DNA of 64,000 nt from Nitrospira sp. (lineage in GTDB: Bacteria > Nitrospirota > Nitrospiria > Nitrospirales > Nitrospiraceae): NCBI GenBank assembly GCA_031315995.1, contig JALDRG010000002.1:372001-436000 (forward strand), given 5' to 3'. Both the position numbers and the translations under genes were made by a program. The first letter of the stretch is position 1. Every line of letters begins with the position of its first letter. This document shows positions 33,143-39,457 of the stretch, one piece after another. The notes under the pieces were generated by a model that worked only from the letters and a program-made list of their open reading frames with translations, did no database searches and had not been told where the DNA came from.

Positions 33143-34594
33143 CTATCCCACCTCGTGCAATTTCATCAGATTCGTCCCGCCCGGCTGACCGATTCTGGTC
33201 CCGGACAAAATAACGATGCGTTGTCCACTGCGAGCCAACCCCTCCGCCTTCAAGCGGCGCTCGGCTTCATTGACCCGCTCATCGGTCGTCGGGATCTGCA
33301 CCATCGTGAGGGGCAGTACTCCCCAGTACAAGGCCATTTGCCGGCGGACGGGCTCGAACGGGGTAAACCCGATGATCGGCGCAGCCGGACGCTGTTTCGA
33401 TACCAAGCGCGCCGTCATGCCACGCTCGCTGAAGGCCACAATCGCGCCCGCCCCGATCGCCGACGCAGCCGAGGAAGCCGACAACGAGATGGCTTCCGGG
33501 ATCGAACCCTGCCCCGGCTCACCCTGCGAGCGACGGATGAAACCCGGCCCCGTCTCGACCTCGGCCGCCCGTATGATGCGATCCATCACCTGCACCACTT
33601 CAACCGGATACTGCCCCACTGCCGTTTCGGCGGACAACATCACCGCATCGGTCCCATCGAACACGGCATTGGCCACATCTGAGGCTTCCGCCCTGGTCGG
33701 CCGCATATGTTGCGTCATCGACTCCAGCATCTGCGTGGCCGTGATGACCAGACGCCGATGGCGATTGGCGGTCGCGATAATCCGTTTCTGCCACACCGGC
33801 ACGGCCTCCGGCCCCAATTCGACCCCCAAATCCCCACGCGCCACCATGACCCCATCCGCATGAGCGAGGATGGGCTCCAACTCCGTCACCGCCTCTTGCC
33901 GCTCAATCTTGGCAATGACCGGGACATCCCCGCCGCACTCGGCAATTAATTGCTTGGCGGCGATGACATCCTCCGCTCCACGAACAAACGACAGGGCGAT
34001 ATAATCCACGCCCTGCGCCACACCGAAGCGCACATCTTCCCGATCTTTCTCCGTCAAGGTCGGAGCGCTCACGACCGTGCCGGGCAGATTCATGCCCTTG
34101 TGAGACGTCACGCGTCCGCCGGCCGACACCGTACACTCTACCGCACCATCGACGATTCGATCCGCCGTCAATTCAACCAGTCCATCATCGATCAGTATTT
34201 TGGCCCCGGGCCGAATGTCCCTGGTCAGCGCCTGATAGGTGACGGGAATATCCTGCACCCCGTCCGTGGCGATCACCGTTCTGGCACCAATCTGCCCGCC
34301 GGATCGCAAGGACATAGTCCGTAACCGAACTCGCTGACCGGCAATGAGCTCCAGCGCGCCCTCGATTTCGCCGACGCGAATGCGCGGCCCCTGCAGGTCT
34401 TGGATAATTGCGACCGCCATCCCGTGACGGGCGGCCGTGTCGCGGATAGCCTTGATCGCCCGCCCATGCGATTCATGCGTACCATGAGAAAAATTTAAAC
34501 GAGCCGCATTCATGCCGCTTTGAATGAGTCGCTCAAGAACGACGGCACCATCGCTCGCCGGACCGATGGTGCATACGATTTTCGCTTTTCGCAT
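33143..34594 (-). CDS. pyk: Pyruvate kinase
   Basis: Converts phosphoenolpyruvate and ADP to pyruvate and ATP. 483 aa from the ATG at 34594 (MRKAKIVCTIGPASDG). Signatures: LNFSHGTHESH, the barrel motif VPVIAKIERQEAV containing the catalytic Lys, MVARGDLGVELGPEAV and the C-terminal IVAFSERGMTARLVSKQRP. The reading frame is open to 34789, but that region is the divergent promoter. It is transcribed divergently from the phosphatase-PFK fusion gene, so both irreversible glycolytic steps could share a regulatory region of about 207 bp. Confidence 0.95.
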   Translation of the reverse strand: MRKAKIVCTIGPASDGAVVLERLIQSGMNAARLNFSHGTHESHGRAIKAIRDTAARHGMAVAIIQDLQGPRIRVGEIEGALELIAGQRVRLRTMSLRSGGQIGARTVIATDGVQDIPVTYQALTRDIRPGAKILIDDGLVELTADRIVDGAVECTVSAGGRVTSHKGMNLPGTVVSAPTLTEKDREDVRFGVAQGVDYIALSFVRGAEDVIAAKQLIAECGGDVPVIAKIERQEAVTELEPILAHADGVMVARGDLGVELGPEAVPVWQKRIIATANRHRRLVITATQMLESMTQHMRPTRAEASDVANAVFDGTDAVMLSAETAVGQYPVEVVQVMDRIIRAAEVETGPGFIRRSQGEPGQGSIPEAISLSASSAASAIGAGAIVAFSERGMTARLVSKQRPAAPIIGFTPFEPVRRQMALYWGVLPLTMVQIPTTDERVNEAERRLKAEGLARSGQRIVILSGTRIGQPGGTNLMKLHEVG

Positions 34595-34801
34595 GGCGCT
34601 GTTCTTCTGTCTTGACAAGATAGGCCCGGCACACCATCTTGTACGTGAAAGGTGAGACTGGATGCGTCCGTCGTTCGGTCGGCAATGGATCATTCTAACA
34701 AACCCAACACTATGCCGCAAAAGAACATCCACATCCCTCTCAGAGACCACGGACGCCGATCTCATTAGAATATACTTACGAACCGGCACGCGAGGACACG
34801 C

Positions 34802-37141
34802 ATGAGCGCATCGGACAGTCAGACAACCGATCAGTTGGACTTTGTCACGATCAATGGCCTGTTGGCCTATGGGGAAGCGCTCACGCAGCGTCTATCGAGC
34901 GGCCAGTTCGTGCTGCCCCCGCCACCCCCGCCGTCTACCGACCGGCGGCAGCGGGCGGAGGAAGCGACCGGCAGGATCAGATCGTTCATCCAGGTGACAC
35001 AGGCCGGTCTGCCCGACGCCGAAGCCTATCGCGCGGCACGTCAAGAGTTGATTGCCGACGCCTGCCACAACGATCCGCTGGTGTTCTTTGCCGCTTGGAA
35101 TTGGCTCCTGGCTCGCGGGGAACTCGCGCCGTTGTATCGCGCGCCGATCGGCGCAACCCCAAAACCCACCCATCGCCGTCCGGTTGCCATCGTGCCGCGC
35201 GCCCATCTGACCCCGCAGTTGGCCGAAGGCCGCATAGTCTTGGATTTGGGTGATGACCGGTTCTGGCTGCTCCCTCGTGACCTCGGCGACCGCACGCTGT
35301 TTCTCACGATGCGTCATGGCGTCTCGGAAGTCGAGAGTAAGACCCATCGGGTCGGGCGACGGCTGGCCAACGTCCTGGATATCGAGCGCGGTGTGCCCAG
35401 AGCGGAAGCCGTCGGAGCGGCGTTGGCACGTATGGTGGGCGTGGTCGGACAGCAATTGGGTTATCTGCAGTTGCGCAATTATTTGGATCCGCGCACCTTC
35501 CTCCACCTCATCAGCCACAGCCCGAACACGGAACAACTCTGCCGGCGAATCACGAAGGCGTTGATCCCTGATCGAGCGGATGCCGTGCACCCTCACGTCG
35601 AGCCGACATTGGAATCGCAGGATTTCGGTTGGGCCACCGGTATGGAAAAGCAGGCGGAGGTCGAGGCAGCGGCCCAGGCCTTCGGCGTCGATGCAAAGAC
35701 CGCCAAACGTCTCATCAAACATCCCTTCTATAGCTACCCGGGCGGGCATTCGTTCTTCGACCTCTATATCGATGTCATCGACGGCCTGCACCGGCTCGGC
35801 CGATCCCATCCCGGAGAGGTCTTGTGCCTCTACACCCACAGTTCGACCCTGCGCGCGCTGCGCATCTATCTGGACCCGCGTCCGTTCCGCGAAGCGTTTT
35901 CAGAATTCGGCGAATACAAAGAAGGACAGGACAATGTCGTCCTTCTCACGTTGGAGAACGGCAAACTCTCCGGGTATTCCACCGCCGTCGGCTTGATTGA
36001 AAGCGAACGGGTCGCCCGCGAAGCCTGGGTGACCGTCGAGCGCGAACGGAGTCAGCGTGTGACGCTCAAACCGCAGCGGATCAAGCGCCTCCTCGCGCTG
36101 GTATCGGGCGGAGATTTCGCAGGCGGCGGGGCGGCGTTGAAAGAACTTCGCGTGACCGGGAACCGCTTCGGCCTGGATGTCTTCTTCGTCCGGCACGGCT
36201 TCCTCGGGCTGGCCAACAACTGGATCGATACCGTCACCGAGGAAGACACGCGCGGCATGAGCAGCCATGCCAGCAGCCCTATCGGCAGCAGTCGTTTCGA
36301 AGATTTCAAAGACGAGCAGGTGCAACGCGCCGCCATGCGCTCGCTGGCGCCCTATCTCGAAGATTCGGCGCTCGTGGTGTTGGGCGGTGACGGCAGCCTG
36401 CGAGGCGCCCGGGCGATTCATGAAACCTACGGAGTGCAGGTCGTCGGCATTCCCGGCACGATCGACAACAACATCGCCGGCACGACCTCATTGGGCTTTC
36501 ATTCGGCAATCGCCCTGGCGAATCAATCCATTGAATCCCTCAAGGCAACCAGCGCCGCCATGGGCAGCATCTTTTTTGTGGAGGTCATGGGCGCCGGATC
36601 GGGTCACCTGGCCCTCGCCAGCGCCTATCAGGCCCGAGCGGAGGGCATACTCGTGAATGAGCACCCCGATCCCGATGCGTACATCGAAGAGATTGTGCTG
36701 GGCACCTTAAAACGCACGTTGGGGGTGCCCAACAAGAGCCACATCTTTGTCGTGGCGGAGCGCACACCTCACCGGCATCACCGGGAAGGCGGTGTCCACG
36801 GGCTGGTCGAATATGTCGCGAACACCATCGCAGCCTGGCCGCAACGTCGGGAGACGGCCGGATACTATTCCTTGGCTTCTGCCACGAAGGCGACGATCTT
36901 GGGGCATACACTCCGAGGCGCCCCCCCGACGCCGGAGGATAAAATGATCGCGCAACACCTCGCCTATGAAACCGTCCGCCGGCTGGTCGAACAACCGGAC
37001 ACCATCGTCGGCTGCATGGTGGCGTATCACGATTCGAACCGGCTCGAAACGATTCCTCTTCACGCCGTCTCACCCAAACCGTTCGACTGGGAATTGTTTA
37101 CCCGCATGCACGGAACGGAAATGACTCACGACAGCATCTAG
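34802..37141 (+). CDS. Fusion of a histidine-phosphatase (FBPase-2-like) domain with a 6-phosphofructokinase domain (779 aa)
   Basis: Residues 1-100 are helical with a proline run. Residues about 160-400 are a branched histidine phosphatase-like domain: TMRHGVSEVESK (His 172) and, after YSYPGGHSFFDL, CLYTHSSTLRAL (His 346), the layout of FBPase-2. Residues about 428-779 are PFK-A like: SGGD (about 432), GSSRF, GGDGS (about 527-531), GTIDNN (552), MGAGSG, AERTP and ATILGHTLRG. Compared with E. coli PfkA from memory, Asp129 is Asn, Arg171 is replaced and Arg243 is Lys. GAGG precedes the ATG. A 14 bp palindrome (37140-37153) overlaps the stop. Confidence 0.88.
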   Translation: MSASDSQTTDQLDFVTINGLLAYGEALTQRLSSGQFVLPPPPPPSTDRRQRAEEATGRIRSFIQVTQAGLPDAEAYRAARQELIADACHNDPLVFFAAWNWLLARGELAPLYRAPIGATPKPTHRRPVAIVPRAHLTPQLAEGRIVLDLGDDRFWLLPRDLGDRTLFLTMRHGVSEVESKTHRVGRRLANVLDIERGVPRAEAVGAALARMVGVVGQQLGYLQLRNYLDPRTFLHLISHSPNTEQLCRRITKALIPDRADAVHPHVEPTLESQDFGWATGMEKQAEVEAAAQAFGVDAKTAKRLIKHPFYSYPGGHSFFDLYIDVIDGLHRLGRSHPGEVLCLYTHSSTLRALRIYLDPRPFREAFSEFGEYKEGQDNVVLLTLENGKLSGYSTAVGLIESERVAREAWVTVERERSQRVTLKPQRIKRLLALVSGGDFAGGGAALKELRVTGNRFGLDVFFVRHGFLGLANNWIDTVTEEDTRGMSSHASSPIGSSRFEDFKDEQVQRAAMRSLAPYLEDSALVVLGGDGSLRGARAIHETYGVQVVGIPGTIDNNIAGTTSLGFHSAIALANQSIESLKATSAAMGSIFFVEVMGAGSGHLALASAYQARAEGILVNEHPDPDAYIEEIVLGTLKRTLGVPNKSHIFVVAERTPHRHHREGGVHGLVEYVANTIAAWPQRRETAGYYSLASATKATILGHTLRGAPPTPEDKMIAQHLAYETVRRLVEQPDTIVGCMVAYHDSNRLETIPLHAVSPKPFDWELFTRMHGTEMTHDSI

Positions 37142-37238: not shown

Positions 37239-37700
37239 ATGTTCATTCGACGCATCACGCACCTTCTCCTCTGGCTCTGCGCGACGATCGCCCTGTCGGT
37301 GGGCCCCTCCTTTGCAATGGAACCGGGCCGGACGGCCCTCGATGCGCCGACGCCGATCCTCACGGCTCCCCCTGAGCAAGCGCCGCACACACAGAACGGT
37401 TCCGTACGCGCCGGCCCCGAGACCAATCCGCGGGACGTCCAGGCAGCCATTCCCCTCTCCGCGCGGGACACCCTGAGCGCCATTGAGACAAGGCATGGTG
37501 ACCCGCCGCCTGGATACGTAGGGGGACGCACCTTTCAGAATCGTGAGCGCGTGCTGCCGAGCGGTCGCTATCGCGAATATGATGTGCATCCAAAAGTGCC
37601 GGGGAAGAATCGAGGGGCCGAACGGATCGTCATCGAACAACGCACCGGCAAGGCCTATTACACCGCCGATCACTACCGTACATTTATTCCGATGAATTGA
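37239..37700 (+). CDS. Secreted guanyl-specific ribonuclease (RNase Sa/N1 family)
   Basis: 153 aa with a signal peptide (LLLWLCATIALSVGPSFA) and a linker of about 50 residues before the catalytic domain. The domain has SARDTLSAI, TFQNRERVLP, YREYDV (catalytic Glu), RGAERIVI (Arg) and YYTADHYRTF (catalytic His), all three catalytic residues of RNase Sa. It cleaves RNA after guanosine outside the cytoplasm. The inhibitor gene starts six bases after the stop. It could be nutritional, or an antagonistic effector. No adhesin or T6SS fusion is present, only a Sec-type signal. Confidence 0.88.
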   Translation: MFIRRITHLLLWLCATIALSVGPSFAMEPGRTALDAPTPILTAPPEQAPHTQNGSVRAGPETNPRDVQAAIPLSARDTLSAIETRHGDPPPGYVGGRTFQNRERVLPSGRYREYDVHPKVPGKNRGAERIVIEQRTGKAYYTADHYRTFIPMN

Positions 37701-37706
37701 GGATAC

Positions 37707-38243
37707 ATGTCTCTCATCGCCCTCCAATCGATCAAGAAACCATGGGCACATCTCCTGGTGCACGCCGAAGGAGAGGCACTCGATACCATACTCTCGGTCC
37801 CAGCCCACTTCATGACCAAAACCATATCCGGCAAGAAATGTAAAACGAAGGCGGGCCTGCTGGGTGAGTTCAGCCGGGTTTTTTCGTTTCCGGAATATTT
37901 CGGCCACAACTGGGATGCCCTCGAAGAATGTTTGGCCGACCTGGACTGGCTGCCGGCCAAAGGCTACCTCGTGGTGGTCACGGATGCCGACCAAGTGCTG
38001 ACGAAACCCGATGAAGAGGATGACTTTGAAACCTTCGTCGAAATTCTGAGCGAAGCCGGAGAAGCCTGGAGCCTGAAAGAATCCGACGAGGCAACGGGAA
38101 ACGGCCTGCCCTTTCACGCCGTACTGGCCGTCTCGGATCGCCACAAGCGCACCCGCCACAATTGGTTCGCGCCGCCCTTGGCCATGGAGCGCAAGGCGGC
38201 GAAATCCACGCCGGTCAGGAAATCGAAAAAATCCTCGCCATAG
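37707..38243 (+). CDS. Barstar-family ribonuclease inhibitor (178 aa)
   Basis: Cytoplasmic immunity-type protein, no signal peptide. The barstar core is FSFPEYFGHNWDALEECL followed by YLVVVTDADQVL; the Asp of WDAL aligns with a key barnase-contact residue of barstar, while the next contact Asp is Glu. It is longer than barstar itself (about 90 aa), with an N-terminal extension and a charged C-terminal tail. GAGG precedes the start, six bases after the RNase stop, so nuclease and inhibitor are co-expressed, protecting the producing cell before the RNase is exported. Confidence 0.88.
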   Translation: MSLIALQSIKKPWAHLLVHAEGEALDTILSVPAHFMTKTISGKKCKTKAGLLGEFSRVFSFPEYFGHNWDALEECLADLDWLPAKGYLVVVTDADQVLTKPDEEDDFETFVEILSEAGEAWSLKESDEATGNGLPFHAVLAVSDRHKRTRHNWFAPPLAMERKAAKSTPVRKSKKSSP

Positions 38244-38725: not shown

Positions 38726-38986
38726 CTACCGCTCGATATCGGTGACGAGTAGAGAGCAGAATCGCTCGATCATTCGTTGCGCCCACCGCGTGAGTCCCCA
38801 GGAGAAGTCATTCACGCGTGAAATTAGCCAGACTCTCGATGTGACAACTTGTCCCACACTCGCACTCAGCGAGGTGAAATGATCACCACAGAGTCCGTGC
38901 GTTTCACTGGGATCGTCCAGCGGCAATTTCTCGCGCAGATACGCCGGCCTCCCGTCTCGCACACACCAGGCACAGAGCACTTTCAC
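38726..38986 (-). CDS. CxWC mini-protein, probable zinc binder (86 aa)
   Basis: A GTG start at 38986 is chosen because AAGGAG lies seven bases upstream; the frame is open to 39058 but lacks support there. The N-terminus VKVLCAWCVRDGRPAYLREK and SETHGLCGDHF give a Cx2C...HGxCxxH pattern suited to one zinc ion. The rest is hydrophilic without clear domains. The first 40 residues are homologous to the protein encoded at 39170-39457, so the pair is a tandem duplication. Function unknown; possibly a nucleic-acid-binding or redox adaptor. Confidence 0.6.
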   Translation of the reverse strand: MKVLCAWCVRDGRPAYLREKLPLDDPSETHGLCGDHFTSLSASVGQVVTSRVWLISRVNDFSWGLTRWAQRMIERFCSLLVTDIER

Positions 38987-39169
38987 AGGAATACTCCTTC
39001 TTGGTAGTCCAACTATCGACCTTAGGGGCGCAAGAGTCACACCAGCAGTCATAAACAAACAAAATATGACAGATTTTCAATGTGATGCATCGTTTCAACC
39101 AAACGAACTTATTCCTTCATGCCGTCAATAGCGTGTCATTCCGGCAATGATTGACGTTTTTTGTCTCGC

Positions 39170-39457
39170 TTAGCTGGAGAGCCTCAAAGCCGCTGAGAGC
39201 GGGTGGGGATGACCGGGGACGCGTCGCTCATTCATAACAAGCACGGCGGGGAGCGACCTTCGGCGGATGACGCCGGACTCATGGCGTGACAGCGATGTTT
39301 CGTCATAACTAGGAACTAGCGGATCCGGGCCGACCCCCATTTGCTGGAGGTGGACGGTACAGATCCCATGGGTCTCGCGTAGATCAGCGAGCGGAGCCTT
39401 CTCTCGCACTAACCCCGGCTGGCCCTCGCTCTGGCACCAGGAACAGATCACTTTCAT
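39170..39457 (-). CDS. CxWC mini-protein, paralogue (95 aa)
   Basis: AGGAGA precedes the ATG. The N-terminus MKVICSWCQSEGQPGLVREK with RETHGICTVHL repeats the Cx2C...HGxCxxH arrangement of the neighbour at 38726-38986. The C-terminal half (SRHESGVIRRRSLPAVLV onward) differs and includes a short basic stretch. No transmembrane or signal sequence is seen. The 40-residue shared head with divergent tails suggests a small zinc module reused with different partners. Confidence 0.6.
   Translation of the reverse strand: MKVICSWCQSEGQPGLVREKAPLADLRETHGICTVHLQQMGVGPDPLVPSYDETSLSRHESGVIRRRSLPAVLVMNERRVPGHPHPLSAALRLSS

Follow-up and report, generated by a model that had tools for sequence, protein, structure and literature searches.

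A histidine-phosphatase-fold domain fused to a PfkA-family kinase is conserved in the class Nitrospiria

Introduction

In animal and fungal PFKFB proteins a single chain holds a histidine-phosphatase-fold domain together with a sugar-phosphate kinase, and yeast phosphofructokinase 1 (PFK-1) carries an N-terminal glyoxalase-I-like domain (PMC12203962). Within the PfkA family, numbered here by Escherichia coli PfkA, D129 binds cofactor cations (PMC10339645) and R162 binds the phosphate of fructose 6-phosphate (F6P) (PMC12203962). R162 is also replaced (by Y, M or C) in several PPi-dependent phosphofructokinases (PPi-PFKs), including the enzyme of C. thermocellum, which phosphorylates sedoheptulose 7-phosphate (S7P) as well as F6P (PMC10339645). 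On the phosphatase side, proteins of the histidine-phosphatase superfamily with genuine fructose-bisphosphatase (FBPase) activity include Mtb GPM2 and yeast SHB17 (PMC4535450). Literature searches found no published description of a fusion of the kind reported here, and a term search of a 2025 review of the PFK superfamily returned no Nitrospira and no phosphatase-fold PFK fusion; the fusion is apparently a conserved, undescribed variant of that superfamily.

Nitrospira are major nitrite oxidisers, including complete ammonia oxidisers, and their entry step into glycolysis has been assumed. Complete glycolysis and glycogen turnover are common in Nitrospira genome annotations (PMC8115632; PMC7078480), and Great Lakes Nitrospira without a phosphofructokinase have been described (PMC9239080). 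Here we analyse a gene in a 64,000-nucleotide stretch of a Nitrospira genome (the window, in whose coordinates all features are given) whose product joins a phosphatase fold to a phosphofructokinase-family kinase.

Gene structure and distribution

The fusion gene (34802..37141, forward strand, as are all its features below) is one unbroken open reading frame of 779 codons with an ATG start and zero internal stops, preceded by a Shine-Dalgarno-like GAGGA motif (34792..34796). Scans for sigma-70 promoters and terminators gave nothing above chance. The product comprises a helical N-terminal region (residues 1-120; 34802..35161), for which a family search returned zero matches, a histidine-phosphatase-fold domain (residues 121-425; 35162..36076) and a PfkA-family kinase domain (residues 428-760; 36083..37081), in the order opposite to that of animal PFK-2/FBPase-2. 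The preliminary description of this DNA, which had proposed a single polypeptide with this reversed order, is borne out on both points, and the motifs that it named are present as RHG (residues 171-173), YTHSS (344-348), GGDGS (528-532) and PGTIDNN (551-557). Against Pfam, the full-length protein matches PF00365 (PFK) at 2.3e-57 over residues 432-726, with 194.9 bits against a gathering cut-off of 30.9, and PF00300 (His_Phos_1) at 3.9e-4, with 20.6 bits, slightly below the cut-off of 21.7. A P-loop 6-phosphofructo-2-kinase domain was not found in the Pfam search, in which the kinase side gives PF00365 only.

A survey across Nitrospirota, as the preliminary description had proposed, detected the fusion by E-value in 100 of the 396 genomes sampled (a count that includes a few split by frame or contig ends), every one of them in the class of the window, with orthologs 62-98% identical end to end. 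The fusion was not found among these 396 genomes in other Nitrospirota classes, where the PFK part alone matches (~30%), and when 84,980 species genomes were scanned, the full-length relatives among the matches listed were Nitrospirota records only. Its distribution is patchy, which is in line with the Great Lakes Nitrospira that lack a phosphofructokinase. A profile of the phosphatase domain matched 75 of 296 Nitrospirota genomes, once in each and always within the fusion frame; no unfused phosphatase-fold domain of this type was found in that search. Within the genus, dN/dS is 0.01-0.05 in the phosphatase-fold and kinase domains compared with 0.12-0.33 in the N-terminal region, the least conserved part of the protein. 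The low ratios point to strong purifying selection on each of the two domains and indicate that both are maintained.

The phosphatase-fold domain

Assignment of residues 121-425 to branch 1 of the histidine-phosphatase superfamily is supported by profile and structure. Searched alone, these residues match PF00300 at 3.3e-5 with 24.1 bits, above the cut-off of 21.7, and all 42 non-redundant orthologs, over which residue conservation was counted throughout, match it singly (E≤1, best 4.1e-8). The agreement of these two results argues that the assignment is not due to chance, and the superfamily named in the preliminary description, which would have fallen had this match been absent, is retained. 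The predicted model of the domain (pLDDT 84, pTM 0.82) retrieved 260 PDB chains at E≤0.001 with Foldseek (1.5e-10), giving a histidine-phosphatase fold with matches spread over the superfamily, including mycobacterial GpgP, phosphoserine phosphatase, TIGAR, PhoE and PGAM.

A closer affiliation to FBPase-2, as first proposed, does not hold. In the structural ranking rat FBPase-2 comes 30th, after GpgP, phosphoserine phosphatase, TIGAR and PhoE, and the sequence profile matches PFKFB2 at E=0.83, which together rule out membership of the FBPase-2 family; TIGAR, PhoE and others match the domain as well as or better than FBPase-2 does. The RHG...H order on which the comparison had drawn is common to the whole histidine-phosphatase superfamily.

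The catalytic residues of the domain are partly kept, with the reservation that their mapping depends on distant alignments. The phosphohistidine motif R171-H172-G173 (35312..35320) and the second catalytic histidine, H346 (35837..35839), are invariant, so that the Arg and His of RHG and the second His expected of branch 1 occur in 42/42 orthologs. The second Arg of the usual catalytic set lacks such conservation: in alignment with canonical histidine phosphatases of the same genus its site falls on N242-T243-E244 (35525..35533), with a register uncertain by two residues (N242 or residue 244), and N242 is invariant, while residue 244 is R in 21, E in 7 (the window among them), K in 6 and T in 5 of the 42. 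The usual catalytic acid is missing as well, since the Glu of L-x-E-x-x-x-G aligns with S272 (35615..35617), which is Ser in 41 orthologs and Pro in one. Two residues from the lost Glu lies an invariant D274, which might act as a substitute acid. A conserved YxYPGG.S motif resembles the one found in sugar phosphatases. As far as alignment can tell, the domain is a conserved pocket without the usual conserved catalytic set. It could be either a binding or regulatory domain or a phosphatase of altered mechanism, and we favour the former; the latter is kept in play by the real FBPase activity of GPM2 and SHB17.

The kinase domain

The kinase is of PFK-1 type and not a P-loop PFK-2, as the preliminary description had recognised: besides the PF00365 score, its AlphaFold model has the PfkA fold (Foldseek to E. 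coli PFK, 2pfk, 2.8e-19), and it belongs to the PFK superfamily on both counts, with several active-site loops modelled at pLDDT <50. When E. coli PfkA and a further 29 PfkA proteins were aligned with the family, an ATP-type constellation emerged that is retained in all 42 orthologs (R72, D103, G104, G124, D127, M169, E222, H249 and R252). The ATP-type motifs GGDG and PG(T/S)ID are kept across the orthologs, as GGDGS with the nucleotide- and Mg-binding D103 and G104 (residues 528-532; 36383..36397) and as PGTIDNN with the catalytic base D127 (551-557; 36452..36472). The identity of a PPi-dependent enzyme is ruled out by G104 and G124 in 42/42 orthologs in place of D104 (GGDD) and K124.

Four substitutions are fixed in all 42 orthologs at positions that are nearly constant elsewhere. 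D129, present in 29 of the 29 comparison proteins, is N in the PGTIDNN motif; R162 (26 of 29) is replaced by S589 (36566..36568; S in 40, T in 2); R171 (28 of 29) is A in MGAGSG (596-601; 36587..36604); and R243 (27 of 29) is K696 (36887..36889). Three of these changes had been listed in the preliminary description and are borne out by comparison with the E. coli PfkA sequence, whereas R162S had been missed. Of the four F6P-phosphate ligands, H249 and R252 are kept, in GHTLRG (701-706; 36902..36919), and R162 and R243 are replaced. Beside E222 there is a His-rich insertion (residues 647-667; 36740..36802), in which H647 and H657 are found in 42/42 and H659 and H660 in 41/42 orthologs. R21, R25, R54 and K213, which we take to be the effector-site residues of E. 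coli PFK, are replaced across the fusion family, and the E. coli-type effector site is predicted to be lost.

All curated NCBIfam 6-phosphofructokinase cut-offs are missed (193.9 vs 253 bits for NF002872; 182.2 vs 371 for TIGR02482). In a tree of PFK domains the fusion forms a long, monophyletic branch, whose position beside E. coli PfkA is probably due to long-branch attraction. Separately, several Nitrospiria families possess PfkA proteins that look canonical and have very high PF00365 scores but read GGNGS (L155, L158, L160, L163) or GGTGS (L159) for GGDGS, replacing the Mg-binding D103.

Genomic context

Pyruvate kinase (pyk; 33143..34594, reverse strand; PF00224, 1.5e-113) lies divergently about 207 bp from the fusion, the arrangement reported in the preliminary description, and this adjacency is conserved in two orders. 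Among 80 near-complete Nitrospiria genomes compared, of which 38 carry the fusion and 42 lack it, pyk neighbours the fusion in 24 of the 38 (within 1 kb in 23 and at 2.8 kb in one), either upstream and divergent or downstream and co-directional; several families show no such linkage. In a second family the adjoining pyk is a different gene, just 38% identical to that of the window. That unlike pyk genes recur beside the fusion, and in unlike orders, speaks for a functional tie with glycolysis. Little weight is given to the presence of pyk in 37/38 fusion-positive vs 28/42 fusion-negative genomes, because a single genus accounts for many of the pyk-negative genomes. Genomes of genus g1, such as G055, G094 and G247, have two pyk genes each, one of which adjoins the fusion, and the fusion-less member G145 has a single pyk.

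Just downstream of the fusion in the window (37239-38243, forward strand), a gene for a barnase-type ribonuclease (PF00545, 2.2e-14) is directly followed by one for a barstar-type inhibitor (PF01337, 7.4e-27), an adjacency kept in much of the family, on a side that varies with orientation. Further on, two small reverse-strand open reading frames (38726-39058 and 39170-39457) resemble each other in their C-x2-C motifs (CAWC/CSWC...ETHG); neither matches Pfam, and the pair is apparently a tandem duplicate.

No PF00365 protein besides the fusion was found in 10 of the 38 near-complete fusion genomes (G088, G110, G117, G127, G189, G295, G305, G125, G137 and G379), two of which are single-contig assemblies. 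The remaining 28 carry a second PFK of another type, which excludes the fusion as a replacement for a missing canonical enzyme everywhere. The second PFK of the window's genome (L079:1474-2739, contig C35) is PPi-dependent (NF041103, 657 bits vs a cut-off of 550), with D at 104 and K at 124, so that Nitrospira of this genus carry two unlike PFK-family proteins. Class I FBPase was found in all 38 fusion genomes checked and in the genome of the window, in which GlpX and FBPase_3 were not found; the phosphatase-fold domain is not the sole FBPase of the cell. Glycogen phosphorylase gave no useful separation of fusion-positive from fusion-negative genomes.

Discussion

Our preferred reading, held tentatively and with a little less than even confidence, is that the fusion is a variant ATP-type sugar-phosphate kinase of upper glycolysis with a regulatory phosphatase-fold domain. 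The PfkA-family kinase would act on a sugar phosphate, most likely F6P, and its binding of the distal phosphate would be relaxed or altered. The N-terminal fold would most likely serve as a phospho-ligand-sensing regulatory module and not as an efficient hydrolase, its ligand sensing replacing the lost E. coli-type effector site. As class I FBPase is present in every fusion genome checked, FBPase activity is not demanded of the fusion. In its favour stand the ATP-type residues retained in 42/42 orthologs, the low dN/dS, the proximity of pyk, the ten genomes with no second PF00365 protein, the glycolysis annotated in Nitrospira genomes, and a phosphatase-fold domain whose fold and R171, H172 and H346 are strongly constrained although the usual acid and second Arg are not kept. 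The data establish the fusion, its conservation and selection, the residue changes, the proximity of pyk and the fusion-only genomes; catalysis, acceptor and regulatory role are what we infer. Several observations count against this reading: D129N, R171A and R162S/T could impair phosphorylation of F6P, the curated family cut-offs are missed, the distribution is patchy, the window's genome has its own PPi-PFK, the phosphatase residues are mapped through distant alignments, the kinase active-site loops are modelled at low confidence, and several families lack the pyk linkage. A more far-reaching version is possible but doubtful, namely a control enzyme of metabolism specific to this class, in which a phosphatase domain stripped of its hydrolytic residues now senses effectors for a PfkA-type kinase that has lost its own effector site, and has altered which acceptor that kinase prefers. 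Bacteria would then have evolved independently a counterpart of both PFK-2/FBPase-2 and the effector domain of eukaryotic PFK-1.

Equal constraint on two domains that were never found apart in the genomes sampled would also be expected of a true bifunctional enzyme, in which the C-terminal half makes fructose 1,6-bisphosphate or sedoheptulose 1,7-bisphosphate and the N-terminal half hydrolyses that product or a related effector, in a cycle analogous to, and independent of, that of animal PFK-2/FBPase-2. We consider this unlikely, despite the conservation of R171, H172, H346 and the YxYPGG.S motif, the invariant D274 that might supply the acid, and the precedents of GPM2 and SHB17 (PMC4535450), given the exchange of the acid Glu for Ser in 41/42 orthologs, the unconserved second Arg and the presence of class I FBPase in all 38 fusion genomes checked. 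A switch of this kind would duplicate functions already present, since the window's genome encodes both a PPi-PFK and a class I FBPase. The FBPase-2 label and the independently arisen fructose-phosphate switch suggested in the preliminary description go further than the evidence does.

It is likewise improbable, to about the same extent, that the kinase serves an acceptor other than F6P, for example S7P or another sugar phosphate. The replacement of R171 and of the distal-phosphate ligands R162 and R243 in all orthologs, together with the conserved His-rich insertion after E222, would suit another acceptor. R162 is likewise replaced in PPi-PFKs, among them the C. thermocellum enzyme, for which S7P is also a substrate (PMC10339645), and F6P is already covered by the separate PPi-PFK of the window's genome. 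However, the F6P site retains H249, R252, E222 and M169, the fusion is alone as PFK-family protein in ten genomes, and the pyk linkage points to glycolysis. Less probable still is a protein dead at both active sites that binds a ligand and regulates another enzyme, such as pyruvate kinase or the PPi-PFK: the linkage to pyk and the lasting loss of catalytic residues on both sides under strong constraint would fit it, but the catalytic base D127, the Mg ligand D103 and the ATP-site Gly residues are invariant, unlike those of typical pseudoenzymes, and the fusion is the sole PFK-family gene of ten genomes. A sequencing, assembly or frameshift artefact joining two genes, the outcome that the preliminary description had named as fatal to its proposal, can be dismissed, since the fusion recurs at full length in ~100 independent assemblies, single-contig ones included, its linker (residues 372-413) holds many invariant positions, and an unfused copy of the phosphatase-fold domain was not found in the genomes searched.

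If the preferred reading of a regulated sugar-phosphate kinase is right, the fusion would provide a natural test of a phosphatase fold turned regulatory domain of a kinase. For the ten fusion-only genomes, either the fusion is the phosphofructokinase despite its four fixed active-site changes, or there is no PfkA-type step, and we caution against annotating it plainly as 6-phosphofructokinase.

Comparison with known systems

With bacterial ATP-dependent 6-phosphofructokinases (PfkA, PF00365; E. coli PFK-1) the fusion shares the fold, the GGDG and PGTID motifs and D103, D127, R72, E222, H249 and R252. It departs from them in D129N, R162S/T, R171A and R243K, in the replaced R21, R25, R54 and K213, in the His-rich insertion after E222, in an N-terminal extension of 425 residues and in scores below every NCBIfam PFK cut-off. 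The fold, RHG motif and second His of its phosphatase-fold domain are those of branch 1 histidine phosphatases (PhoE, TIGAR, GpgP, CobC, Mtb GPM2), from which the domain differs by Ser for the acid Glu, an unconserved second Arg, large insertions and the attached kinase. The resemblance to animal and fungal PFKFB is no more than an analogy, in that each chain unites a histidine-phosphatase-fold domain with a sugar-phosphate kinase; unlike PFKFB, the kinase is PfkA-type and not P-loop, the order is reversed, FBPase-2 is not the nearest phosphatase, and the catalytic Arg and Glu are missing. Yeast PFK-1 differs in the fold of its other domain, in being eukaryotic and in its duplicated PFK halves, but there too a PFK-1 has gained an N-terminal domain with the fold of an unrelated enzyme (PMC12203962).
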